Source: a virus. Taken from it: a stretch of 20,973 nt of DNA. Below are positions 5,371-17,343 of this stretch, piece after piece. Each line of letters begins with the position of its first letter. Position 1 is the first letter of the stretch. Location of the stretch: positions 1-20,973 of IMG/VR virus record IMGVR_UViG_3300029787_000409. One strand, written 5' to 3'. The position numbers were made by a program, and so were the translations under genes. The notes beneath the pieces were generated by a model. It searched no databases and was not told the origin of the DNA. It saw nothing but the letters and a program-made list of their open reading frames with translations.

Positions 5371-5540
5371 TTTTTTGTTTCTCCAAAAATATCTAAACTA
5401 GGCATTATGACATTTACATCTTGAGCCATGTCTTTTTCCTTATAACCTTTAGCTTCCCAGTCTTTTCTTTCCTTAAAAAGCTCTCCTGTTTCTTTGTGTC
5501 TATAAGTTGTTTCTACTTTTGCTGGTTTTATTACTTGCAT
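5367..5540 (-). CDS. Small basic protein, 57 aa
   Basis: A 57-codon frame starts at the TAATG overlap of the previous gene and ends in an ATGA overlap with the 386-residue gene. The product begins MQVIKPAKVETTYRHKETG and continues LFKERKDWEAKGYKEKD, then DVNVIMPSLDIFGETKK. Lys and Glu dominate, suggesting a charged helix. Both ends show tight coupling, so I consider it real although short. No family recognised; it could be a virion assembly helper. Confidence 0.65.
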   Translation of the reverse strand: MQVIKPAKVETTYRHKETGELFKERKDWEAKGYKEKDMAQDVNVIMPSLDIFGETKK

Positions 5541-5881
5541 TATGTTACCACTTCTCTAGGCTGTATTTCTAATATTGAAGCTATGACGTGCAGCTCGTTT
5601 GCGTCAGAAGCTTGTACTTTTAATATTTCGCTTTCCTCTACTACAAGAGGTTGAGTTAAAAGTTCTGTTGTTGTATTTGTGTCCACCGCTTTTGTTTTAA
5701 ATAAACTAAATATATTTGCACTAGCATCAACTAAAGTAACTGTTATATTACAACTAGATCCAGCATCATTTGAAACTAATAGTGATTTTACCACAGAAGT
5801 TCTTGCAGATGGAACGGTATATAAAGTAGTTAAGTCAGTTGTTGTTAAATCTACTTTTTTATTTATAAAACTATTTGCCAT
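5540..5881 (-). CDS. Small beta-rich virion protein, 113 aa
   Basis: After MANSFINKKVDLTTTDLTTLYTVPSARTSVVKSLLV the sequence has NITVTLVDAS, FKTKAVDTNTTTELL, PLVVEESEILKVQASDANELHVIASILEI. This is a plain beta-sandwich pattern and a family I recall from marine-phage structural regions, where the TLYTVP and VKSLLVSN strands are conserved. It resembles in size and fold the 104- and 89-residue proteins at the right end, so the three may be related. ATG overlaps the preceding stop and its own stop overlaps the next ATG. Likely a small virion component; no catalytic residue is seen. Confidence 0.65.
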   Translation of the reverse strand: MANSFINKKVDLTTTDLTTLYTVPSARTSVVKSLLVSNDAGSSCNITVTLVDASANIFSLFKTKAVDTNTTTELLTQPLVVEESEILKVQASDANELHVIASILEIQPREVVT

Positions 5882-6045
5882 TAATTTAAAAAGAAGTTTT
5901 GAGCTTCTACCTCATCCTTTAGATCTTGTTGGTATGTAGTATTTAATTTTTGAACTATACCATCCAAATCTCTAGTCTGTGCCTCAGCCACAGTATAGTC
6001 ATATTCTTGTGAGGGTCTAGTTATTACTTGTGTAATTTTTGCCAT
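5881..6045 (-). CDS. Small unknown protein, 54 aa
   Basis: A 54-codon frame starts with ATG overlapping the stop of the 728-aa gene by one base (TAATG) and ends in TAA, which in turn overlaps the next ATG in the same way. The product begins MAKITQVITRPSQEYDYTV and has a charged helical middle (AEAQTRDLDGIVQKLNTTYQ) and an acidic end. Length, coupling on both sides and codon use like the neighbours make it a real gene. It resembles the small proteins that sit after gp10-type genes in marine phages; a structural or chaperone role is possible but not shown. Confidence 0.7.
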   Translation of the reverse strand: MAKITQVITRPSQEYDYTVAEAQTRDLDGIVQKLNTTYQQDLKDEVEAQNFFLN

Positions 6046-8231
6046 TATCTTCTTCCATCAGGTTGTATATCTAATCTAAAAGTTCCTAACTTCCAACTCT
6101 GGTCAACAGCTGTGTTTTCTATTTTTACCGCAATTGCTCTAGCTCTAGCTCTTGTATCGACTTTAGTTGTAGACGACGTAATATCAAAAGGTCCAAGTGG
6201 TGAGCTTGCTTGTGTACCATTAGGGTAGTTTTTTAATTGTAGTGTAACTCTTGTTGTTCCTGTCTGTGATACAAAGTCAGGGATAAATCTTCTAATCTTC
6301 ATTAAAAATTCACCATCTCCTCTAAGATCTGGCATACCAGTTGCTTGACCAGTCGCAGCTCTTCTTTGTGTAATATCAAAATCACCCGAAGCTATGTTTG
6401 AAGTAATAGCAGTAATCGTACCATTTTTATTTTGATCAGTCCCTGTTTCGTGTTCATAATAACTTGTTCTACCTTCTGTGTTGCCTACAACATCAAAAGA
6501 CGTATCTGTAGCTGCATCGTATTCTAAGGCATGTGGTTTACCAAAGACGGCAGAATCACGCCACATAGTTCTTGCAAGTGATCCAATAGTCCATACCGGT
6601 CTTTGTGTTGATGAATCAAAATAATTAAATGTTACTTGTTTATTAACTACGTCTGATGTCGCTGATGGGTAGAACCAAATAACTTCACCAAACAAATTAT
6701 TTAAACCTGCTGACACCATTTGATTACCAGAATCTAAATTAATATCATCATATACGTGGTCTTCTACAAGACAGGGTAATGATTCTAGTTTACCTGCATA
6801 TCTAAAAAAACCATTTTCCGACATCCAATATGTAGCACCATCAACTTCAACACATGCGTTCTGTCCAACAAGTCCACAATGTGTTCCAACTTGTGCAAAG
6901 GCAAATGTAAATGGTTGACCAACAAAACGTTGAGTGAACAATGCAGTATCAGTCCAAACATAAATTGCATCTCTACCTCTAAGTGCTCCCATGATCCGTG
7001 ATCCGTCAGCCAGTCTTTGTGTACCAGCTGTATTGGTTGCTGTCGGTGTATAAGAATTAATATTTTCTTGATCAGAGAATCTAATAAACATATCATCTTG
7101 TGTAGATGTATCTCCAATAGTTGTTTCGGTGCCAAAAAATACTAAGTGACGATCCGGTGTAGATACAATCATATGTCTTGATGCTGTCGGTGCACCAGAT
7201 ATAATTGTAGCTCGTGTTTCAGTTGCATTCGCTAAACTAGAGTCCCATTCAAAACAAGCACCATCGTGAATCAAACAAATAGCTTTGTTACCAAAATTAT
7301 CTAGTGACCACATACCTGGATCTAAAGCAAGGCCTTCTTGAGTTTGTTCATTCCATGCGCTGTAATCTGTACCATTAGTAACAGTCACTCCATCACTATG
7401 AGATGCAGCAGTGGTTCCTCGAGTTCCTCGTGTAACACCGGTTAAGGTATTACCACTAATTCCTGTGTACTGAATCATTTCTGTTCCAATTAACACAAAG
7501 CTAGTTCCCGTAGATGGAAACTGTACAGCACTTGTTAAAACTATGGTTGTTGCGCTAGCATTTATCGCTCCGTTTAAAGTAGTGGTAACAGCACCTGTAT
7601 CTTCACCACCATATGAGCCTAAACCCCAGCCATAACCTTTTTCTTGAACGGCTGTACCTACAGGATAATAATGTTGTACTCTTATACCACCTGAAGTAGT
7701 TGCCCCGGACCCTGATTCATTGGACGGCATTGTAACAGTAAGAGTAGTTGATGTTGGTACAGAGGTTATCATAAATTTTTTGTTATCAAAATCAGACGCT
7801 CCAAAGTTAGATCCTGTTATAGTTGTAAAATTATCTAATAAAATAATGTCTTGTGGAGACATATTATGTGCAGTTGAAAAAGTTATTGTAACAACAGCTG
7901 ATCCGTTAGTCGTACTAAATGCATTTGTAAGCGTTGTTGTAGTTTTAATAGGATGAATGTCGTAAAATACATCTCCAGAAAATGCATACAATATTCTGTT
8001 AGTTCCAATAATAGCGTATCTTCTTCCGGCAGTATTTAAAAAATGATGAAGACCTCTACCTGCACCGGTTAGTTCGTTAGAACCCGAACCCCCTAACTGG
8101 TTCCAACCCCCTATTTTTTCAGGTATACCATATCTAAATCTTACATTATCACAGTCAATCCACTGATTCTCTGCTGCTGTGGCTGTTATTTGTTTATTAA
8201 TACCTGGCTGAAATCCTATTTTCTGTAACAT
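6045..8231 (-). CDS. Tail protein, P22 gp10-like (tail hub/stabilisation), 728 aa
   Basis: In P22, gp10 sits between gp4 and the tail needle and stabilises packaged DNA. The N-terminal GFQPGINKQITATAAENQW then CDNVRFRYGIPEKIGGW (about 6-43) is the signature I know from marine-phage proteins of this type, followed by GRGLHHF and RYAIIGTNRILYAF. Residues about 110-183 form an FCCH-like beta insert (GSAVVTITF, DNF, DFDN, TTLTVTM). Residues about 222-285 form the TTIVLTSAVQFP ... GTEMIQYTGI ... TLTGVTRGTRGTTAASH insert common in phage structural proteins. The body is a beta-propeller-like repeat with Trp, then a C-terminal beta domain. No clear SD is seen ahead of the ATG. It overlaps the next small gene by one base (TAATG). 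Confidence 0.7.
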   Translation of the reverse strand: MLQKIGFQPGINKQITATAAENQWIDCDNVRFRYGIPEKIGGWNQLGGSGSNELTGAGRGLHHFLNTAGRRYAIIGTNRILYAFSGDVFYDIHPIKTTTTLTNAFSTTNGSAVVTITFSTAHNMSPQDIILLDNFTTITGSNFGASDFDNKKFMITSVPTSTTLTVTMPSNESGSGATTSGGIRVQHYYPVGTAVQEKGYGWGLGSYGGEDTGAVTTTLNGAINASATTIVLTSAVQFPSTGTSFVLIGTEMIQYTGISGNTLTGVTRGTRGTTAASHSDGVTVTNGTDYSAWNEQTQEGLALDPGMWSLDNFGNKAICLIHDGACFEWDSSLANATETRATIISGAPTASRHMIVSTPDRHLVFFGTETTIGDTSTQDDMFIRFSDQENINSYTPTATNTAGTQRLADGSRIMGALRGRDAIYVWTDTALFTQRFVGQPFTFAFAQVGTHCGLVGQNACVEVDGATYWMSENGFFRYAGKLESLPCLVEDHVYDDINLDSGNQMVSAGLNNLFGEVIWFYPSATSDVVNKQVTFNYFDSSTQRPVWTIGSLARTMWRDSAVFGKPHALEYDAATDTSFDVVGNTEGRTSYYEHETGTDQNKNGTITAITSNIASGDFDITQRRAATGQATGMPDLRGDGEFLMKIRRFIPDFVSQTGTTRVTLQLKNYPNGTQASSPLGPFDITSSTTKVDTRARARAIAVKIENTAVDQSWKLGTFRLDIQPDGRR

Positions 8232-8269: not shown

Positions 8270-8605
8270 TCATTTTTTAGGTATAAATATAGTCCATTCT
8301 AGCTTTGATATTAAATCATCAACATATACTTTGTTTAAATTATTCTTTTTTAAATAATTGTGTAATTCTTCAATGTCAAATACAACCCATTTGTCTTTCA
8401 TTTCCAAAACCATTTTATTTGCCTGACTATCTAATCTGCCTTTTTGAGCAGGTCTTCCATTAGAAAGTTTAAACATCTCTCTTACATCAAATTTATAGAA
8501 ACCATTTTGACCCCTTATAATACCAGCAATATTCCAAGATGTTTTTTCTTTAGGATATTCTATAGCTACTAAACATTCAGAAAACCTAGTTACTATTGTT
8601 GGCAT
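8270..8605 (-). CDS. Unknown cassette protein, 111 aa
   Basis: Not recognised. It starts inside the kinase gene (13-base overlap), so translation is coupled. The sequence is mixed alpha/beta with many Lys: MPTIVTRFSECLVAIEYPKEK, then IAGIIRGQNGFYKFDVREMFKL, a KGRLDSQANKMVLEM stretch, DKWVVFDIEELHNYLKKNNLNK and a terminal LEWTIFIPKK. No P-loop, metal site, membrane segment or helix-turn-helix can be seen. Being the last gene of the AT-rich cassette and downstream of the kinase, it could assist the sulfation or hydroxylation enzymes, or be a separate small accessory gene. A 38-base gap then leads into virion genes. Confidence 0.65.
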   Translation of the reverse strand: MPTIVTRFSECLVAIEYPKEKTSWNIAGIIRGQNGFYKFDVREMFKLSNGRPAQKGRLDSQANKMVLEMKDKWVVFDIEELHNYLKKNNLNKVYVDDLISKLEWTIFIPKK

Positions 8606-8979
8606 TTATTACGAATTTCCTTTATCACATCTTGATAATCAAAGTTTGTAATTTTAAAATGACAGTGTGATGGTTTCTCAAACATTTTGTTTGTATCATC
8701 AAATCTACCTTTCTTAATTGTGTTCATCCAAACTCTTACATCGTACTCAAGTCTGTCTTCATCAAACGGACAAATAAAATCTATAATTGCATGACCCTCT
8801 ACAAGAGAAGATAAACATCCCATTCTTTGTGCTTGTCTAGTTCTACCATCTGCAGAGAAATCCCAATCGTTAAACATCTTTCTAACTTCATCAGCGTTGA
8901 AGTAAGCATGACCTGCAGACAGCTGTCTTGCAAAGGTTGTCTTACCTGATCCTGGTAGTCCGAATACTAATATTCTCAT
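8593..8979 (-). CDS. Short adenylylsulfate (APS) kinase-like protein, 128 aa
   Basis: APS kinase makes PAPS from APS and ATP. Visible: a P-loop GLPGSGKTT (7-15), NADEVRKMFNDWDFSADGRTRQAQRM (28-53), whose layout copies the DxDNVR ... GFSxxDRxENIRR block of APS kinases, GHAIIDFICPFDEDRLEYD (62-80) matching the VxxxFISPFxxxR strand, and the final DTNKMFEKP segment typical of the short marine-phage version. The normal enzyme has about 170-200 residues; this one lacks much of the C-terminal lid. It overlaps the previous and next genes by four and 13 bases. The nearby sulfotransferase makes PAPS supply the simplest role. Other nucleotide kinases of the same fold remain possible. Confidence 0.75.
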   Translation of the reverse strand: MRILVFGLPGSGKTTFARQLSAGHAYFNADEVRKMFNDWDFSADGRTRQAQRMGCLSSLVEGHAIIDFICPFDEDRLEYDVRVWMNTIKKGRFDDTNKMFEKPSHCHFKITNFDYQDVIKEIRNKCQQ

Positions 8980-9572
8980 TTTAAACTAGGTCCTGTTAAC
9001 CAACTTACTAAAGAATATCTTTGTCCTTTTTTAATAGGCAAGACTTGATGTAACATATAACTTGGAAAAATAATAATAGAACCCTGTTCCTTAGTCATTT
9101 TAAATTTATCTTTAGGATGTGATCCAGTTATTATTTCAAGTTCACCACCTTTGTAATTGTCTGGGGACAGTTGAATACTTACAGACAGTTTTCTTGTTAC
9201 TATACCACTAATAGAATCTTGATGACTTTTAAATTGACCTTTTTTCTTTGCTTCATAGTGAGTAAATTGAATGGGTTCACCAAACCCTCTAATGTCAAAT
9301 TGAAAATGTTCATCGTTTAATTTAATAACGCTCTCTGCAATTCTAGAATATATCCATTGTGTGTTAACATTAAAAGCAATCCAAGCAGTTTTACTACTTC
9401 TAAATGAACTATCTTTTTTTGATTTTAATTTAACACCTACAAAAGATTCTTTAGGTTTTAGAGATTCACCTAGTTCTATAATTTTTTCACATTCTTCTTT
9501 AGTAAAAATATTTTTTTGATAAGCAAAGTTGCTTACATTATCTTTAAAAGGTACAGAAAAAGGAACTATCAT
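8976..9572 (-). CDS. 2-oxoglutarate/Fe(II)-dependent oxygenase (PKHD-like), 198 aa
   Basis: Contains FAYQKNIFTKEECEKIIELGE (about 16-36) as the N-terminal helix, FKSHQDSISGIVTRKLS with H117 and D119, LSPDNYKGGELEI (about 135-147), GSIIIFPSYMLHQVLPI with distal H175 and KKGQRYSLVSWLTGPS with R185. The set matches the PKHD-type hydroxylase core. An SD-like AGGAC lies upstream, although the start also overlaps the previous gene by four bases (ATGA). The next gene, the APS-kinase-like protein, begins with a four-base overlap, so the products are likely made together. Among the cassette oxygenases this and its 185-aa neighbour are the most alike. Substrate not known. Confidence 0.85.
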   Translation of the reverse strand: MIVPFSVPFKDNVSNFAYQKNIFTKEECEKIIELGESLKPKESFVGVKLKSKKDSSFRSSKTAWIAFNVNTQWIYSRIAESVIKLNDEHFQFDIRGFGEPIQFTHYEAKKKGQFKSHQDSISGIVTRKLSVSIQLSPDNYKGGELEIITGSHPKDKFKMTKEQGSIIIFPSYMLHQVLPIKKGQRYSLVSWLTGPSLK

Positions 9573-10126
9573 TTTAATAAAGGTCCTTTCATAAACATAG
9601 TGAGACTAATCCTTTCACCTTCTGTAATTGGAGTTACTCTGTGGTTATACATAGAGGGAAACATAATTAACGCTCCTGGTTTAAAATTATCTACTCTATT
9701 TATTACATGATGAAATATTTCTAAGTCACCTCCTTCATAAGATTTAGTAGATATGTTGATTAATACAGTTAACTTAAGATCTTCAAAACGATAATTATTA
9801 GCTATGTCAGTATGCCAGTCATATCGACCATCTACATTATAAGTATTAGTTAATATGTAATCATAGTGATTAATTGGATGCACATCAAAACCATATTGTT
9901 CTCTGTTAATAACAGAGCAACGTTCAAATACATTTGATAAATATTTTTTTAACTCGCTATATATAATTAATTTTGATGTAGTGTGTTTTAACGTCTTGCC
10001 ACCCACTCTTGCACCATTTTGTTCCGGCTCGTTAATCCCACTTTTTTTAGATATTCTATTAATTGAAAGTATTTCTTTTTTAGAAAGCACATCAGGAATT
10101 ATCCAATAGATTGGTCTTTTATTCAT
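9569..10126 (-). CDS. 2-oxoglutarate/Fe(II)-dependent oxygenase (P4H-like), 185 aa
   Basis: The core motifs are complete: YDWHTDIANN with H105 and D107, LKLTVLINISTKSYEGGDLEIF (about 117-138), GALIMFPSMYNHRVTPI with distal H162, and GERISLTMFMKGPLLK with R172. This motif order is that of PKHD/prolyl-4-hydroxylase-like oxygenases known from T4-like and marine phages. The C-terminal ending (M-K-GP-LLK) and the FPS..xH.V.PI.xGxR block closely follow the next gene (8976-9572), suggesting the two arose by an old duplication. It overlaps the sulfotransferase gene by eight bases and the next gene by four. Substrate is unknown; peptidyl, lipid A or nucleotide substrates are known for the superfamily. 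Confidence 0.85.
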   Translation of the reverse strand: MNKRPIYWIIPDVLSKKEILSINRISKKSGINEPEQNGARVGGKTLKHTTSKLIIYSELKKYLSNVFERCSVINREQYGFDVHPINHYDYILTNTYNVDGRYDWHTDIANNYRFEDLKLTVLINISTKSYEGGDLEIFHHVINRVDNFKPGALIMFPSMYNHRVTPITEGERISLTMFMKGPLLK

Positions 10127-10919
10127 ATAAAATTTTATTTAAATGTTTGTATTTATTAATTACAGTTTCAGGGAGTTGAATATCATTCGGTTCTTTTTTA
10201 ATTTGTTTAGTTCTAATAGAATGCATGGGTGCACCTAAAATAGAATCATTATAAAAAGGTTGTTTTAAATTATTAAAGGTATGTTTATATTTTTCTATAC
10301 CATAGTAGCTATATATTTTATCAATAGTTTTTTTAGGGTTATTAACTAAATCATTATAATCAATTAATAAAAAATTTTTAATTAAATTATTCTTTTTTAA
10401 TTGGTATATTGAATAGAGCATTGTATCTACGTAATCTCCTTTAGTCATCATTAAGTCAACTTTAGTTTCAATTTCATTAGTAAATAAAGTAGTAGGATCT
10501 AAAGATTTATATATTTGATTGTAAAAATAATTAGGGTTATCTTTACATAGCTTTAAATAAGATTTTATTATCTCCAATATATCCCTTACTAATATAACAA
10601 CTTTAATTGGGTTGGGAGCAATTGATTGTAAAACCTTATAATTGTAGGGAGTCAACCAATCTCCTCTTTCAACAATGTATTTAAAATCATGGTGACTATA
10701 GTAATTAGGAATTATGTTTTCATAAACGTTTTTTAAATTAGTAGAGCATGGATAGTTTTTAAAACGCATAGAATTTTGTTCTGCATTTTTTATAGCAAAT
10801 AAAAGATCTGGTAAAAAGGAATGACCAGTCGCGTAGATATCAGAGTTTTGATTTAATATTGCTGATAACAAAGTATTGCCTGATCTAGGTAAACCTGTAA
10901 AATAAAAATATTGTTTCAT
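10119..10919 (-). CDS. Sulfotransferase (PAPS-dependent), 266 aa
   Basis: Transfers sulfate from PAPS to a hydroxyl or amine. The N-terminal strand and loop FTGLPRSGNTLL (about 7-18) is the 5'-phosphosulfate-binding loop (P-R-S-G-N/T pattern), and KVVILVRDILEIIKSYL (106-122) holds the 3'-phosphate-binding R112 and S120 of the sulfotransferase family. A YNDLVNNPKKTIDKIYSYYGI segment (about 204-224) matches the conserved C-terminal ...LV..P......I..+LG.. region. The length is normal for bacterial and phage members (250-300). There is no signal peptide, so it acts in the cytoplasm. It sits in the middle of the oxygenase run with overlaps of four and eight bases, and the APS-kinase-like gene lies two genes downstream; that kinase could supply PAPS. 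Acceptor not recognisable: a tail protein, glycan or metabolite are options. Confidence 0.85.
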   Translation of the reverse strand: MKQYFYFTGLPRSGNTLLSAILNQNSDIYATGHSFLPDLLFAIKNAEQNSMRFKNYPCSTNLKNVYENIIPNYYSHHDFKYIVERGDWLTPYNYKVLQSIAPNPIKVVILVRDILEIIKSYLKLCKDNPNYFYNQIYKSLDPTTLFTNEIETKVDLMMTKGDYVDTMLYSIYQLKKNNLIKNFLLIDYNDLVNNPKKTIDKIYSYYGIEKYKHTFNNLKQPFYNDSILGAPMHSIRTKQIKKEPNDIQLPETVINKYKHLNKILYE

Positions 10920-11359
10920 ATAAATTCTGTTTTAAACGCTAGGGTTATTCTATCACCTTTTTTGGGTGCATTCCCTTTGTGGGGTTTTTTAGCATCAAAT
11001 AATATAAGTTTATCTTCTTCAAACTTTATTTTACTTTCATCTTTAATTTCAAAATCTCCTTCACCATTTACCATATATAAACATGTCATATGCCCGTCGT
11101 CAATATGGTAGTCTCCAGGCATATTAGAATATTGTAAATTAGTGTAAACCCTTAAAAGTTTTAAATTCTTTCCTAAAATATTTTTAATCTTAAAAAATAT
11201 AAAATCCATCAAAGAATCAAAAGGAACTTGACCCTGTAAGAAATCAGAAGTTTTTCCTCCCCTACTTTGTTGAATTCTATAATTTATATATTTTAAATAA
11301 GATTGTAGGAAGCCATTCATTTCTTTTCCTAAAAAATTTTTTTTAATTATTGTTTTCAA
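10916..11359 (-). CDS. Compact 2OG-Fe(II) oxygenase-like protein, 147 aa, TTG start
   Basis: The shortest oxygenase of the cassette. The core shows GDYHIDDGHMTCLYMV with H85 and D87, a short turn (NGEGDFEIKDESKIKF, about 98-113), DKLILFDAKKPHKGNAP with distal H127, and GDRITLAFKTEF with R137. The usual substrate-side insert between the strands is minimal, so it could also be a cupin-like sensor. The start is uncertain. The 147-residue version begins at TTG (11359), inside the previous gene and without a clear SD, but includes an IIKKNFL strand typical of family N-termini. The ATG at 11320 (134 residues) has TTAGGAAAAG ahead of it, a good SD. I keep the longer form because of the N-terminal strand. 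It overlaps the sulfotransferase gene by four bases. Confidence 0.75.
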   Translation of the reverse strand: MKTIIKKNFLGKEMNGFLQSYLKYINYRIQQSRGGKTSDFLQGQVPFDSLMDFIFFKIKNILGKNLKLLRVYTNLQYSNMPGDYHIDDGHMTCLYMVNGEGDFEIKDESKIKFEEDKLILFDAKKPHKGNAPKKGDRITLAFKTEFI

Positions 11360-11843
11360 TTTTTTTGTACCATGTTGCTATCGTATATCTTTCATTTTTT
11401 AAAACTGGTCTAACTCCATGTTTATAGTATTGACCATCAAAAAATATTATGCGTCCTTGTTTAGGTTTAAAAAAAGAACCGTCTTCAAAATATGTTTCAC
11501 CACCATCGTAGTCATCATTTAAATATAGAATAGAAGACAATGTAGTGTGCTTATATGCAAAATCTCTATGTAATTTTTGATAACAATTTACAGGCCATTT
11601 AACTAAATGACTATACTCAAACATTGAATAATTTAACATTTTAGAAACATAGTTTAAATCTTTTACAAGTTTGTCAAAATGTTTAAAAAAATATTTTTCT
11701 GTATTTAATTCTAAAACTATATTGTAAATGTTGTCCTCTGTCTCATGTTTATGAAAATTCTTTTTAGGTTTTTTCTTAAAAAATTTTATAAGCTTTTCAC
11801 AATCTTCTTTTGACAACATGTTGTCTCTACACAAAAATATCAT
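11343..11843 (-). CDS. 2-oxoglutarate/Fe(II)-dependent oxygenase, 166 aa
   Basis: A small prolyl-4-hydroxylase-like enzyme. The N-terminal helix MLSKEDCEKLIKFFKK (about 9-24) is followed by Lys-rich sequence; the core begins at about residue 88: QKLHRDFAYKH with H92 and D94, SSILYLNDDYDGGETYFEDG (about 103-122), KQGRIIFFDGQYYKHGV with distal H142, and NERYTIATW with R152 as the 2-oxoglutarate anchor. All four residues needed for iron and co-substrate are in place, so an active enzyme is plausible. The start overlaps the upstream gene by four bases (ATGA), and the downstream gene overlaps this one by 17 bases if its TTG start is used. The region is extremely AT-rich with runs of AAA Lys codons. 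Substrate not recognisable. Confidence 0.85.
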   Translation of the reverse strand: MIFLCRDNMLSKEDCEKLIKFFKKKPKKNFHKHETEDNIYNIVLELNTEKYFFKHFDKLVKDLNYVSKMLNYSMFEYSHLVKWPVNCYQKLHRDFAYKHTTLSSILYLNDDYDGGETYFEDGSFFKPKQGRIIFFDGQYYKHGVRPVLKNERYTIATWYKKIENNN

Positions 11844-12475
11844 TTTAACACCAGTCTAGTTAAACCATTTTGATCACCTAAATCTCCTTTTATAAAAGTG
11901 TTAAAAGCTAAACTAATTCTATTATTACTTTCTTGTTTGGTTATAACTGAATGTTCTAATCTTGATGGAAACATTATTAATAACCCCTTTGCTATAGGTA
12001 TTACCCAAGAACCAGAGTTGTCTTCTGTATATTTTATTGTTTTAGGTTGTATTTGAGTATATCTTATAGGTGACGTAAATTTTATTGAATCTTCTTTTTC
12101 AGCAGCAAAATAAAAAACTCCAGATATAAAACTATTTGGATGTTCATGAGTATGGTGGCTTTGATTTTTAGTAGTAATATTTAACCAAGACTGAGTTATG
12201 TAAATTTTATTTTTAGGGTCTGCATGAAAAACTTTATAAAAAAATTTTTCTATATGATATTGTAAAAACTTATTTAAATTTTTAAATAATTTATCTTTTA
12301 AAACATAATTATTTTTACTATTAAAATTTAAACCTGTGTTGCACTCAACGTCTTTTAAATATTTTTCTATAGCTTTTGTCTCTTGATTTAAAATTTCTCT
12401 TCCAATACTAGTTTTATAAACCGAAGTAGGAAATATTCTTTGCACTTCTGCTTGTTGGTTAAAAATATGTTTCAT
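11840..12475 (-). CDS. 2OG-Fe(II) oxygenase-like protein (TIGR02466/2OG-FeII_Oxy_5 type), 211 aa
   Basis: This protein differs from its neighbours. It has an N-terminal FPTSVYK (about 15-21), a helical middle, then TQSWLNITTKNQSHHTHEHPNSFISGVFYF (about 94-123), GSWVIPIAKGLLIMFPSRLEHSV and NNRISLAFNTFIKGDLG at the end. This order (FPTxVY start, WLN, HxHP-S-SGV-Y, FPSxLEHSV, RISxxFN) is what I know from the putative 2OG-Fe(II) oxygenase family in marine phages and cyanobacteria. The usual HxD pair is replaced by a His-rich stretch; the iron ligands are probably within H108-H112, with distal H175 and R186. Activity therefore needs testing. It overlaps the next gene by four bases (ATGA). Function unknown in the phage. 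Confidence 0.75.
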   Translation of the reverse strand: MKHIFNQQAEVQRIFPTSVYKTSIGREILNQETKAIEKYLKDVECNTGLNFNSKNNYVLKDKLFKNLNKFLQYHIEKFFYKVFHADPKNKIYITQSWLNITTKNQSHHTHEHPNSFISGVFYFAAEKEDSIKFTSPIRYTQIQPKTIKYTEDNSGSWVIPIAKGLLIMFPSRLEHSVITKQESNNRISLAFNTFIKGDLGDQNGLTRLVLK

Positions 12476-12476
12476 A

Positions 12477-13073
12477 TTAATACCCCCAAGTTATAAAAGA
12501 ATAACGCGTTCCTTTAGTTATTGTTTTAACTTCGTGAGGGTAAATAAAATTAGAAGGAAATATAAGCACATCTCCTTGCTTTAAATTTATTTTTTGATTA
12601 CAGACATAGAACTCTCCACCTTTATAATTATCATTTAATAAACCAATAATACTTAAAATAGGTACTCCTCTTTCGTTGCCATGTGTATCGGCTTCATAAA
12701 AAATATCATGTATATTGTCTACATGCGGAGCCATGTTTGTGTTCTTATCATATCTATTTAATCTAAATCTGGACATCTTGTTTATAATTCGTTGGGTGTT
12801 ATGTAGATGTAAATGGGGATATAAAGAAAAAGTATTATGTCGATACTGGTAAAACGCATCTGTTATAAATGGAACTAAAGTATTTTGTTCCTCTTCTTTC
12901 ATCATGTAATTTTTTAATTCTTCTTTTTTATTCTTTCTAGATCCAAGACTTTTACCATCAACGTCTTGCCATTGATGTAAAGTGTATTTTACTTTTTTAA
13001 AACCTTTTATTAAACTATTACAAGTTTCTTTAGGTATGGTATTGTATACTCCTACAAAATCTAAAACATTCAT
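12477..13073 (-). CDS. 2-oxoglutarate/Fe(II)-dependent oxygenase, 198 aa
   Basis: Uses 2-oxoglutarate, O2 and Fe(II) to hydroxylate a substrate. The double-stranded beta-helix core is visible: H117-V-D119 (MAPHVDN) as the first two iron ligands, a strand block SIIGLLNDNYKGGEF (about 141-155), GDVLIFPSNFIYPH with the distal ligand H180, and KGTRYSFITW with R190 as the 2-oxoglutarate-binding residue. The N-terminal helix (MNVLDFVGVYNTIPKETCNSLI) is typical of prolyl-4-hydroxylase-like enzymes. Length is normal for the compact family. It is the first gene of the AT-rich cassette, directly after the promoter-like element, and the next gene starts one base after its stop. No SD is obvious. Substrate unknown; a protein, lipid or sugar hydroxylase remains possible. 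Confidence 0.85.
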   Translation of the reverse strand: MNVLDFVGVYNTIPKETCNSLIKGFKKVKYTLHQWQDVDGKSLGSRKNKKEELKNYMMKEEEQNTLVPFITDAFYQYRHNTFSLYPHLHLHNTQRIINKMSRFRLNRYDKNTNMAPHVDNIHDIFYEADTHGNERGVPILSIIGLLNDNYKGGEFYVCNQKINLKQGDVLIFPSNFIYPHEVKTITKGTRYSFITWGY

Positions 13074-13128: not shown

Positions 13129-13665
13129 TTATTTTGATATCCAAGAAGAAGAGGATGAATCCCAATAATGAGTTGCAACAAAACCATTGCTTTTATCTTC
13201 AGTAAAAGGAGCACCTTCCCATCTAGCTTCTGATTCAATCCAAAATATATCTGCTTGTATAGAGTTAATTTCAACAACACTTGGAAAATCAACCGGAGGT
13301 GTCCATGAACCTGTAGGTTCATTAAAAACCCATGATGGATTATCTAACGGTTGTCTAGCTATAAAAGAATCAGAACCCTCATCATATTTCATTCCAACAG
13401 ATGCAAAATTTTTTCTAAAAGCTTTTGATTGATCTGGATCTACAACAGGTGATTTAGTGCTATCACTTGGAGTATAATATACTCCAGCTCTTGTGTTATA
13501 AGAAGTTTGTTTAAAGTCTGAGTTAGGTAAATTAAATAATTTTCTGCAAAACTCAACACCTAAAGCTTCTTGTTCAACTCCGTTTTCGTCCGTAATAACT
13601 TCGTTATTAACAACCATAACTTTCATTACGTTTTTATCTTGATCTAAAAGTGCAAAGTGAGCCAT
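13129..13665 (-). CDS. Conserved marine-phage fibre-associated protein, 178 aa
   Basis: I recognise the N-terminus MAHFALLDQDKNVMKVMVVNNE from a small family widespread in cyanophages and other marine phages, followed by GVEFCRKLFNLPN, KQTSYNTRAGVYY, then AFRKNFASVGMKYDEGSDSF, a Pro/Trp-rich NPSWVFNEPTGSWTPP, and a C-terminal Trp-containing segment with AxFIW and THYWDSSSSSW. These blocks (FCxxLF, KQTSY, RKNFAxxG) are the family's signature; members are found among tail and structural genes and some were detected in virions. AAGGT stands upstream of the ATG. It is the last virion gene before the accessory cassette. The role is probably at the fibre or neck; no catalytic residues are seen. Confidence 0.65.
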   Translation of the reverse strand: MAHFALLDQDKNVMKVMVVNNEVITDENGVEQEALGVEFCRKLFNLPNSDFKQTSYNTRAGVYYTPSDSTKSPVVDPDQSKAFRKNFASVGMKYDEGSDSFIARQPLDNPSWVFNEPTGSWTPPVDFPSVVEINSIQADIFWIESEARWEGAPFTEDKSNGFVATHYWDSSSSSWISK

Positions 13666-13667
13666 AA

Positions 13668-14636
13668 TTATACCTTCAAAGTTCCTGATCCTGTAAATTG
13701 TAAAATTGTATCAGATCCGCTTGTCGTTACAGTTGGACTTCCTGTTACTACTCCTGAATAACTTGAAGTTGCTAATCTTAAAATAACAATACCCGAACCG
13801 CCTTGGCCTCCTTGCCATCTTCCGGCATCATATGGCCCGGGATCTCCGCCCCCGGATCCTCCTCCGCCGCCGCCGGTGTTAGCCTGACCGCTTCCTGCTT
13901 GTGAGATTCCTTGTGGTGGATTTCCGTGGCCGCCGTCTCCGCCGCCGCCAGCTCCCTCATTTCCAGGGTTTGATGGGGCTTTATATTTTCCTCCGCCACC
14001 TCCGCCTGCTCGCGTAACCGACGATGCTGTAATTGAAGATGCTAAACCTGCTCCTCCAGCTGAGGGATAACCCCCTACAGCAACAGCTCCGCCTGCTCCT
14101 CCTCCGCCACCATTTGAATAATATAATCCATTAGATCTTGGTTGTGCTCCACCATCAAAACCTTGAGTGGCATTACCACTTCCTGGTCCTTGTGAACCAT
14201 CTTGACCTGGAGCAAAAGCTCCTCCGCCTGATCCGCCATCGGTTGCTTGTGTATATGAAGTTGGTGAAGGCCAAGTAGTTCCGTATCCTCTGCCTCCGCC
14301 AAGTGAAGTAATGTTTACTCCAGTTTGACCAACGATACTTGAATCATCTCCCCCAGTGTCAGAAGTACTACTAGGATAACTAGTCGAACCCCCTGCTCCA
14401 ATTGTAATAGTTAGTGTTTCACCTGTTTTAGGTGCTATATCAGATTCTGTTGGGCTATTTCTACCTGAGTTTTCTGAAGCGTAAGAGTTTCTATATCCCC
14501 CTGCTCCTGCTCCTCCGGCCGCAACTCCACCTTTTGATCCACCATTTCCGCCACCACCGATGACTAAGAAATCCATAGTTACTGGGGCACCGAAGCCTCC
14601 GCCAGATCCAAAACCTAGAACTTGATATCCAAACAT
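13668..14636 (-). CDS. Glycine-rich receptor-binding/adhesin-like protein, 322 aa
   Basis: A short unique N-terminus (MFGYQVLGFGSGGG) is followed by MDFLVIGGGG and then a very long Gly/Ser/Ala-rich body with many GGGGG clusters, and the end GGSGIVILRLATSSYSG followed by a final pair of beta strands (ILQFTGSGTLKV). This layout is that of the glycine-rich tail fibre proteins common in marine phages and metagenomes, and it resembles in principle the polyglycine-helix adhesins at fibre tips of T2/S16-like phages. Such regions commonly determine host range. The DNA is strikingly GC-rich (for example 38 of 60 bases in 13861-13920) against a low-GC neighbourhood, because of Gly codons GGN; most are written GGA/GGC/GGG/GGT mixed. 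AAGGAGA precedes the ATG. The receptor is unknown. Confidence 0.7.
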   Translation of the reverse strand: MFGYQVLGFGSGGGFGAPVTMDFLVIGGGGNGGSKGGVAAGGAGAGGYRNSYASENSGRNSPTESDIAPKTGETLTITIGAGGSTSYPSSTSDTGGDDSSIVGQTGVNITSLGGGRGYGTTWPSPTSYTQATDGGSGGGAFAPGQDGSQGPGSGNATQGFDGGAQPRSNGLYYSNGGGGGAGGAVAVGGYPSAGGAGLASSITASSVTRAGGGGGGKYKAPSNPGNEGAGGGGDGGHGNPPQGISQAGSGQANTGGGGGGSGGGDPGPYDAGRWQGGQGGSGIVILRLATSSYSGVVTGSPTVTTSGSDTILQFTGSGTLKV

Positions 14637-15879: not shown

Positions 15880-17343
15880 TTATGCAACATCACTATAACT
15901 TGTATTTGATCCAGTTGCAACATCTGTATACGAAGAATTTGAACCTGTGTCAACATCAGAATATGCTTGAATTCCGAAGCCAGTAGCAGTTCCAAATCCT
16001 GCTACAGAAGACGTTGTTTCTTGTCCAGTTAATCCCATAACTTGATCTGCAGGCGTAATAGATCCTACAGAGAATGTAGATGATTGACCACTTATTCCTA
16101 CAAGTATTTGACCTAAATCTACAGATCCTACAGAAAAAGTGGACGCAACACCTGTTAGCGGTATAAATTCTATAGTGCCTTCTATTGTGTCTCCAACTGA
16201 TGCAGTTATTTCTTGACCTGTTGGTATTACTATAGAAGTTAAATCAAGTGTTGTAGAACCAACTGCAGAAGTTATTGCTTGACCAGATAATCCTACTAAT
16301 TCTTGATCTGGAAATATTGTTCCAACTGCACTAGTCATAGTAACACCTACGACTTGTTCTGGTATGTCAAGTTGAGCAGGAACTGCTGAAGTTATTTGTT
16401 GACCTGTTAATCCCATTACATCTGCAGGATTAACGGTAAACATACCCCAACCATTTTCACCATAAGATGCATTACTCCAACCATTAGCACTTAAGTTAGA
16501 TGTAATTTCTAAACCTTCTAGTGATACAGTTAAACCAGAGAAACCCCAACTTTCAAAGTTCCAAGTATCTCTACCCCAACCTGATTCTGGAAAAGCTGTA
16601 ATATCTCCAAGAGAAGAAGTTATTTCTTGACCATCAAGAATTTGAGTTACAGAATTAGAACCCCAAGATTCAAAACTCCAAGTGTCACTACCCCAACCTT
16701 CACTTGGAAAAGCAACTGCATCTCCTAAAGTAAGAGACATTGCAAATCCACTTACGGATACAACAGGACTAAAACTATCTCCATATGGTTCTTCCGACCA
16801 GCCATCTCGACCCCAACCTTGCTCTGGAAACGTAGTTAAGTCACCTAGTGTTGTTGTAATTGATTGACCAGTTAGTTGTACTACTTCATCATTAGCTTGA
16901 CCCCATGAACCACCAGTATTCCAAGCATCCACACCCCAACCTGATGTAAATGCTTCACTTATTCCCCAAAGATTTGCACTCCAATTTCCGGCTCCCCAAA
17001 AATCAGTGTTAGGTGTATTTGCTTGTCCACCCATACCGCCATGGTTTGTACAATAATAATAAAGAGTTGGTGCGCTAGAAGCTACTTCAATTTGAGTGTA
17101 AGCTCCAGATGATCCTGGAGTTCCATCTGTTGTTACGTTAGTTGTGTATTGAGTTCCGCCTGAAGCATCTGCGGCTGTTGCAAACCTTAATGGATGTGAA
17201 CTATTAGAAGAATCTGATTGATCAAATCTAAAAGTTGCACCTTCAACTAATTCTAAAGTAGGTGTTTGAACGCCATCAATAAAATATTTATTACCGGAAC
17301 CGGTAGAAACTACCGTTACTGTGAAAGTTCGAGTAACGGACAT
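15880..17343 (-). CDS. Virion appendage protein with N-terminal cupredoxin-like domain and tandem repeats, 487 aa
   Basis: Residues 1-106 look like a cupredoxin (plastocyanin-type) fold: beta strands, a lone H50 in SHPLRF and a C-terminal YYYCTNHGGMGG giving C98-x2-H101-x2-M104, the four ligands of a type 1 copper site. Residues about 115-302 are Trp/Gly-rich, with FPxxGWGxDxW units beginning at F172, F212 and F251 (period 39-40). Residues about 155-460 also contain some eleven copies of a GQxITSxxG-type beta motif with varied spacing. The last 27 residues are an 11-residue tandem repeat (YTDVATGSNTS type). AAGGAG precedes the ATG. In marine phages I know this copper-site motif from virion proteins near tail genes; the role is unknown. 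Copper binding is inferred from ligands only. The repeat region suggests an elongated fibre or sheath-like structure. Confidence 0.65.
   Translation of the reverse strand: MSVTRTFTVTVVSTGSGNKYFIDGVQTPTLELVEGATFRFDQSDSSNSSHPLRFATAADASGGTQYTTNVTTDGTPGSSGAYTQIEVASSAPTLYYYCTNHGGMGGQANTPNTDFWGAGNWSANLWGISEAFTSGWGVDAWNTGGSWGQANDEVVQLTGQSITTTLGDLTTFPEQGWGRDGWSEEPYGDSFSPVVSVSGFAMSLTLGDAVAFPSEGWGSDTWSFESWGSNSVTQILDGQEITSSLGDITAFPESGWGRDTWNFESWGFSGLTVSLEGLEITSNLSANGWSNASYGENGWGMFTVNPADVMGLTGQQITSAVPAQLDIPEQVVGVTMTSAVGTIFPDQELVGLSGQAITSAVGSTTLDLTSIVIPTGQEITASVGDTIEGTIEFIPLTGVASTFSVGSVDLGQILVGISGQSSTFSVGSITPADQVMGLTGQETTSSVAGFGTATGFGIQAYSDVDTGSNSSYTDVATGSNTSYSDVA
15883..15963 (-). repeat. C-terminal 11-residue tandem repeat, 2.5 copies
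   Basis: The last 27 codons of the 487-aa gene encode YSDVDTGSNSS, YTDVATGSNTS and YSDVA, an 11-residue unit repeated two and a half times. At the DNA level the copies are also related (repeated CATC-A-TAT-GA patterns), so copy number may vary between related phages. Such short C-terminal repeats often act as attachment or trimerisation tails; here the role is unknown. Confidence 0.8.
17026..17343 (-). other. Cupredoxin-like domain with H-C-H-M ligand set
   Basis: This segment encodes residues 1-106 of the 487-aa protein. The ligand candidates are H50, C98, H101 and M104, the set of a type 1 copper centre, with the C-x2-H-x2-M spacing on the last loop. Between them lie strands with an FRF pair near 38-40 and a disordered-looking Ser/Asn-rich turn just before H50. 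No signal peptide is seen, so the domain would be folded inside the host cell before copper could bind, or load copper outside after release. Confidence 0.6.

Follow-up and report, generated by a model that had tools for sequence, protein, structure and literature searches.

A compact APS-kinase-like gene paired with PAPS-type sulfotransferases: a probable sulfation module among phage virion genes

Phage sulfotransferases, phage cysC genes and phage oxygenase cargo have all been published. Sulfotransferases of unclear function were previously noted in OM43 phage genomes (PMC10580990), and genes of the same Pfam family are carried by cyanophages S-SRM01, S-SKS1 and S-SCSM1; the part of PMC10580990 considered here describes no partner that makes the sulfuryl donor 3'-phosphoadenosine 5'-phosphosulfate (PAPS). 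A phage cysC, a gene for adenosine 5'-phosphosulfate (APS) kinase, has been reported as an assimilatory sulfate reduction gene (PMC10914622). 2-Oxoglutarate (2OG)-Fe(II) oxygenases have been published as cargo of HTVC023P-type pelagiphages and T4-like cyanophages (PMC9599517, PMC3037559, PMC9602691), with no kinase-sulfotransferase pair described in the parts of these papers considered here. In this work we analysed a viral fragment of 20,973 bases (IMG/VR record IMGVR_UViG_3300029787_000409; the window hereafter), in which a PAPS-type sulfotransferase gene (ST), an APS-kinase-like gene (KIN) and six oxygenase-fold genes lie among virion genes.

Every part of this locus belongs to a known superfamily. 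ST shares its Pfam family with the earlier phage sulfotransferases, is 28-31% identical to cyanophage and marine-virus sulfotransferases, and differs from those of PMC10580990 in its pairing with KIN. Likewise, the oxygenases of the window are of the same families as the pelagiphage and cyanophage cargo. KIN resembles the cysC of PMC10914622 in being a phage-borne APS-kinase gene; unlike that gene as published, it is tied to a sulfotransferase, and this points to sulfation rather than assimilation of sulfur. In the open-access literature we found no report of a paired kinase-transferase module, which is not proof of priority, nor of phage-directed sulfation of particles or infected cells.

Linkage of the kinase and the sulfotransferase

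The two genes at the centre of the analysis are as follows.

8593..8979, minus strand: APS-kinase-like gene KIN, 128 amino acids (aa); PF01583, phrog_10255
10119..10919, minus strand: PAPS-type sulfotransferase gene ST, 266 aa; PF13469, PF00685

The kinase query alone retrieved 80 viral loci, and the addition of loci found via the transferase gave 82 kinase-bearing loci on 81 contigs (L006 and L081 lie on the same contig). The control set consisted of 80 loci retrieved by a neutral virion gene of the window (6045-8231). A sulfotransferase was present in 79 of the 82 kinase-bearing loci versus 4 of the 80 neutral loci, and the kinase was found in none of the 80 neutral loci. The Fisher p value of this association is 6.5e-37, which overstates independence because phylogenetic non-independence is ignored. 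In the 79 loci the kinase and transferase are on the same strand and mostly overlap. Eleven of them, first scored as lacking a transferase, have one of a different type, with motifs LIPKNGSTS and REPxxRxxSG and a weak Sulfotransfer_2 match. The three kinase loci without a transferase are L028 and L080, both with the kinase at a contig end, and L082. By a conservative count, six transferase groups (less than 50% identity, one of another Pfam family) all pair with the kinase. Mean column identity is 76% in the kinase family and 41% in the transferases; a conserved donor maker combined with a swapped transferase is what one would see if phages supplied the donor in a common way and had different acceptors. 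These data support linkage of the kinase and the sulfotransferase across many phages. The earlier note on this DNA, made from the sequence alone, had named, as one of its refutations, related phages that carry such genes apart without co-occurrence, and the survey found the kinase and the transferase together.

KIN passes the PF01583 APS_kinase model (23.2 bits, cut-off 21.1), and its cellular relatives score 25-31 bits. The GLPGSGKT P-loop and residues D30, R33, F41, R46, R52, P71 and R76 are invariant in the family. The AlphaFold2 model of KIN (pLDDT 91.6) was aligned by VIA-align with APS kinase 5cb8 over all 128 residues, with Z of 15.1 and a root-mean-square deviation of 2.2 Å. The top 26 VIA-align rows were APS kinases or larger chains with that domain, the first other kinase appearing at Z of 12.8, and the Foldseek top 10 were all APS kinases. 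By sequence profile, the nearest solved structures are also APS kinases, apart from two long multi-domain chains. The kinase family first read from the sequence agrees with both predicted fold and profile. KIN shares the P-loop, the APS-site residues, the full-length fold and the sulfotransferase linkage with canonical APS kinases (CysC and the kinase domain of PAPS synthetase), and differs from them in its length of 128 aa and in that the partner nucleotidyltransferase of its relatives is neither Sat nor CysDN. From the modelled fold and the conserved residues we judge that KIN would work like an APS kinase.

ST scores above the Pfam cut-offs for Sulfotransfer_3 (PF13469, 50.3 bits, cut-off 27) and Sulfotransfer_1 (PF00685, 41.0 bits, cut-off 22). 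Residues P11, R12, G14 and T16 of the 5' loop and R112 and S120 of the 3' site are invariant in 39 relatives, so ST retains the predicted 5'-phosphosulfate loop and 3'-phosphate site of PAPS-dependent sulfotransferases. When the ST family profile was compared with the PDB, protein-tyrosine sulfotransferase 1 (TPST1) was the best match (4.5e-14), and TPST1/2 were among the best. ST resembles Sulfotransfer_3 proteins and TPST1/2 in PF13469 and the PAPS loops, and differs from TPST1/2 in its 266-aa length and its setting among phage virion genes.

We consider it probable that these genes form a module for sulfation by the phage, placed in a hypervariable cargo slot among the virion genes, and very probable that the chemistry is PAPS-dependent sulfation. 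KIN would phosphorylate the 3'-OH of APS to give PAPS, whose sulfuryl group ST would then pass to a hydroxyl. Relatives probably form the APS itself, from ATP and sulfate, by means of a nucleotidyltransferase encoded next to the kinase or fused to it; the window phage, which has no such copy in the window, may obtain APS from its host or from a gene elsewhere in its genome. A conserved donor maker with swapped sulfotransferases in virion genes points to phage-directed sulfation of particles or infected cells.

Several observations weigh against this reading. KIN lacks about 40 residues relative to the APS kinases aligned with its model and scores far under the NCBIfam apsK cut-off (TIGR00455, 18.8 versus 138.7 bits); we therefore class it as APS-kinase-like, a member of a compact divergent group, and not as apsK proper. 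The nucleotidyltransferase profile is nearest to an archaeal nicotinamide mononucleotide (NMN) adenylyltransferase and not to ATP sulfurylase, and the window contains no copy of the gene. In L082, a fragment without a sulfotransferase, the kinase and nucleotidyltransferase (5414-6125) directly follow a DNA polymerase gene. A sulfotransferase without the kinase occurs in L004, which has the same cassette with a transferase 86% identical, and in L140 and L154. The cyanophages S-SKS1, S-SRM01 and S-SCSM1 carry a sulfotransferase, and no kinase was found in a whole-record search that lacked a positive control; hosts of cyanophages with a related sulfotransferase may supply PAPS. Finally, the SAR116 genome G008 has a canonical kinase in addition to the kinase-nucleotidyltransferase pair, so that exclusivity of the two systems, described below, is not universal.

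A partner nucleotidyltransferase and its cellular homologues

A HIGH-type nucleotidyltransferase of about 115 aa is present in 58 of the 82 kinase loci and directly follows or adjoins the kinase in 50. It bears the motifs GRxQPxHxGH and ISATxIR and passes the Pfam CTP_transf_like cut-off, and its fold is nearest to phosphopantetheine adenylyltransferase and NMN adenylyltransferase (PPAT/NMNAT) by VIA-align, with a structure model that is weak at residues 79-91. The ATP sulfurylase models fail: PF01747 gave 16.8 bits (cut-off 24.3) and no NCBIfam model, TIGR00339 included, was over its cut-off. We also rejected its identification as an ATP sulfurylase by fold, as Foldseek placed 4dnx no higher than rank 18 (E 0.26) and the 50 VIA-align rows contained no ATP sulfurylase. 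The protein may nevertheless act like an ATP sulfurylase. The pair resembles PAPS synthetase in its order, kinase and then nucleotidyltransferase, and in being sometimes fused; it differs in the small nucleotidyltransferase with its NMN adenylyltransferase likeness, and a role in PAPS synthesis is putative. No report of such a pair as a PAPS source was found in the open-access literature. Fused genes occur in Stenotrophomonas phages and other isolates and, among cellular genomes, in SAR116 and a gammaproteobacterium. No sulfotransferase is annotated near the fused gene of the Stenotrophomonas phages DLP_6 and Bhz60 (L084:5001-5729 and L085:4992-5729).

The pair also occurs in cells. Two SAR116 genomes have the kinase-nucleotidyltransferase followed by a sulfotransferase gene, of Sulfotransfer_1 in L096 and of Sulfotransfer_2 in L092. 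In Pelagibacteraceae the pair adjoins aprA in 29 of 30 loci (e.g. L104:3484-4363, L196-L225), and AprB was confirmed by PF12139. Among 53 Pelagibacteraceae genomes, partly incomplete and related by descent, the kinase and the nucleotidyltransferase were found in the same 33. CysD was found in 7 of the 53 and canonical apsK over its cut-off in 7, in both cases never in the 33 pair genomes (p = 1.4e-4), and Sat had no match over the cut-off in any of the 53. AprA was over its cut-off in 32 genomes, all of which have the kinase; the 33rd kinase genome has an aprA fragment at a contig end. The joint occurrence in the same 33 genomes, the aprA neighbourhood and the absence of CysD and canonical apsK from these genomes suggest, by indirect evidence, an unrecognised PAPS-synthesis pair in Pelagibacteraceae. 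This bears on a known gap, since Pelagibacter has AprBA and no sat or cysDN, strain HTCC1062 lacking sat and cysDNCHIJ (PMC5069961). According to Table 3 of that paper, cysC and aprA occur in the same strains, and HIMB59 has cysD; we infer that this cysC is the compact kinase found here.

With some reservation, and at rather less than even confidence, we propose that the pair is a third system for PAPS synthesis, in which an ATP sulfurylase of minimal size and NMN-adenylyltransferase type would work with a short APS kinase. Many SAR11 would use it beside AprBA in place of CysDNC, and phages would spread it together with exchangeable sulfotransferases that act on the phage's tail proteins or on the surface of the host. 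We rejected the general claim that the host lacks PAPS and the phage must bring it: 41 of the 53 Pelagibacteraceae genomes have their own Sulfotransfer_3 match, mostly in open reading frames (ORFs) of about 570-580 aa, in kinase and CysD genomes alike.

The kinase and its partner could instead act on another activated nucleotide, and what the transferase moves would then not be sulfate. A CysC-like kinase and a nucleotidyltransferase, in that case a cytidylyltransferase, are likewise paired in the Campylobacter O-methyl phosphoramidate capsule pathway, and the nucleotidyltransferase of the phages is not recognisable as ATP sulfurylase. However, the cellular neighbours are the APS enzymes aprA/aprB, the pair and CysD or apsK are mutually exclusive in the Pelagibacteraceae sample, and the phage partner is a PAPS-type sulfotransferase in six groups; we regard this alternative as very unlikely. 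A NadR-like salvage of nicotinamide adenine dinucleotide (NAD), in which the kinase would act on nicotinamide riboside and the partner would be an NMN adenylyltransferase, is more improbable still. It would agree with the best profile match of the nucleotidyltransferase and with the NADAR gene that adjoins the fused copy in phage Bhz60, but both the sequence and the fold of KIN match those of APS kinases, the links with sulfotransferases and aprA would be left unexplained, and the window contig has the kinase without a nucleotidyltransferase.

Oxygenase-fold genes of the run

KIN and ST belong to an eight-gene run on the minus strand, from 13073 down to 8593, in the order OXF, OXE, OXD, OXC, ST, OXB, OXA and KIN. 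Neighbouring genes overlap by 4-17 base pairs (bp), with the sole exception of a 1-bp gap between OXE and OXF (12475/12477). The earlier note had read this region as six oxygenase-fold genes, a PAPS-type sulfotransferase and an APS-kinase-like gene in one overlapping run within virion genes, and the ORFs and the Pfam and PHROG matches agree with that description. The oxygenase-fold genes are listed below.

8976..9572, minus strand: OXA, 2OG-Fe(II) oxygenase; PF13640, 56.7 bits; HQD117...H175...R185
9569..10126, minus strand: OXB, 2OG-Fe(II) oxygenase; PF13640, 47.8 bits; HTD105...H162...R172
10916..11359, minus strand: OXC, oxygenase-fold protein of 147 aa, TTG start as listed; phrog_274, 2.4e-20; HID85...H127...R137
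11343..11843, minus strand: OXD, 2OG-Fe(II) oxygenase; PF13640, 49.5 bits; HRD92...H142...R152
11840..12475, minus strand: OXE, putative 2OG oxygenase of PF13759 type, 77.2 bits; TIGR02466, 80.3 bits (cut-off 62.5)
12477..13073, minus strand: OXF, 2OG-Fe(II) oxygenase; PF13640, 52.2 bits; HVD117...H180...R190

OXA, OXB, OXD and OXF have both a Pfam model over the cut-off and the HxD...H...R motif. OXC has the motif (H85xD87...H127...R137), yet Pfam gives only a sub-cut-off Cupin_2 match. In OXE the metal site reads HxH in place of HxD, as in all 21 homologues with a parsable motif, and its metal chemistry may differ. The HxD...H...R motif holds for five of the six genes and not for OXE. Pairwise identity among the six is only 17-29%. 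Oxygenase proteins encoded in 8976-13073 match phrog_3531, phrog_274 and phrog_2297, which bear the names "ferrochelatase", "DNA endonuclease V" and "DNA endonuclease"; the first two names were rejected as probable mislabels because the proteins show oxygenase motifs. Genes that PMC9599517 describes in pelagiphages as "ferrochelatase" partners may likewise encode oxygenases.

The gene order OXF-OXE-OXD-OXC-ST-OXB-OXA recurs in related loci L002-L006, followed by the kinase in all of them except L004; this repetition shows that the arrangement is not chance. In the neutral set, oxygenases are present in 78 of 80 loci, with one to ten ORFs each and most within the same slot, and 76 of the 80 loci have no sulfotransferase. 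Oxygenases are therefore the resident default cargo of the slot, and a general tie to sulfation is not shown. Clustering at 38% identity gave 83 oxygenase groups in 156 loci, 80 with and 76 without a sulfotransferase. The OXA subfamily is not enriched (58/80 with versus 45/76 without), whereas OXD (17/80 versus 0/76) and OXE (18/80 versus 4/76) are more frequent beside sulfotransferases; the counts with and without a sulfotransferase are 9 and 1 for OXB, 7 and 0 for OXC, and 15 and 5 for OXF.

These results bear on the proposal of the earlier note that the oxygenases hydroxylate a target and ST then sulfates the new hydroxyls, in one dedicated pathway. The single overlapping run, the order kept in related contigs and the enrichment of OXD and OXE are consistent with it. 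However, the enrichment is confounded by shared ancestry, OXA is about equally frequent either way, most oxygenase-bearing loci of the neutral set do without a sulfotransferase, and natural Ser, Thr, Tyr or sugar hydroxyls are enough for a sulfotransferase. The survey thus speaks against a single dedicated pathway, which we consider unlikely, and it is equally doubtful that hydroxylation creates the hydroxyl that is sulfated. Some oxygenases may hydroxylate the same target as ST, and certain oxygenases could be linked to sulfation in their function.

Acceptor, host and cargo slot

The run is flanked by tail-fibre-like genes on one side and a virion structural gene on the other.

6045..8231, minus strand: virion structural gene at the edge of the cargo slot, the neutral anchor of the survey; phrog_3287, 4.8e-96
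8270..8605, minus strand: small gene between the kinase and the virion gene, kept in related loci
13129..14636, minus strand: two genes at the tail-fibre end of the slot, one of phrog_7759 type and one glycine-rich of phrog_2295 type, in the same position in related loci
15880-17343: tail-fibre-like genes; phrog_30742

The small gene at 8270..8605 had no family match in Pfam, PHROG or NCBIfam searches; the nucleotidyltransferase of relatives sits near its place.

The acceptor would most likely be a protein exposed on the virion, for example a tail adhesin, with a host-surface glycan next. The position in the virion block and the protein-tyrosine sulfotransferases as nearest solved relatives weakly favour a virion protein, and we put this forward tentatively, with a chance somewhat short of even. 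Acidic-Tyr motifs typical of tyrosine sulfation were not found in the virion genes of the window. EEYD acidic-Tyr repeats do occur close to the transferase in some fibre genes of kelch-like type, but an argument for tyrosine sulfation from them was rejected, since the two sets hardly differ (2 of 79 loci versus 0 of 76). Surface glycans are frequent targets of bacterial sulfotransferases, and ST may instead modify a host-surface glycan or lipid, altering the surface of the infected cell, e.g. to block superinfection. In favour of this reading, the transferase gene of S-SRM01 has genes for a glycosyltransferase and for a nucleotide-sugar epimerase close by. On the other hand, ST sits among virion genes in the window and in relatives, the run has no glycosyltransferase, and the nearest solved relatives of ST sulfate proteins; we hold a surface acceptor to be doubtful but not far-fetched.

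The product of the virion gene at 6045-8231 is 45-47% identical to proteins of phage 023Pt_psg01 and Pelagibacter phages HTVC027P and HTVC023P. Two virion genes of the window, which is a fragment only, are nearest to these phages, at 36-47% identity. Because HTVC027P and HTVC023P infect SAR11 and 023Pt_psg01 is related to them, the window phage, a marine phage, is likely a relative of SAR11-infecting phages with a SAR11-like host. HTVC027P has an annotated 2OG oxygenase gene in the same slot, one gene from the homologous virion gene.

The slot fits a hypervariable general tailoring hotspot, in which some relatives carry halogenase and split carbamoyltransferase genes. Its contents could then be unrelated morons accumulated in a recombination hotspot, and the many oxygenase clusters (83 among 156 loci) and the additional enzymes in some loci would agree with this. 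Yet the kinase and transferase are non-independent, and a pair of the same kind is found again in SAR116 genomes. An origin of the whole cassette as unrelated morons is quite improbable; it is disfavoured for the kinase and transferase and may hold for several of the oxygenases. For the kinase and transferase we retain the sulfation module.

Other genes were observed in this slot. Directly before the sulfotransferase, many related loci have a gene of about 229 aa of no known Pfam family (L018:980-1666). Two genes of tryptophan-halogenase type (PF04820) share the slot with the sulfotransferase and kinase at L011:11138-14266. A carbamoyltransferase, present as separate N- and C-terminal domain genes, adjoins the sulfotransferase-kinase pair at L068:3971-5619, as identified by Pfam, and at L024:7880-9296, as identified by sequence likeness.

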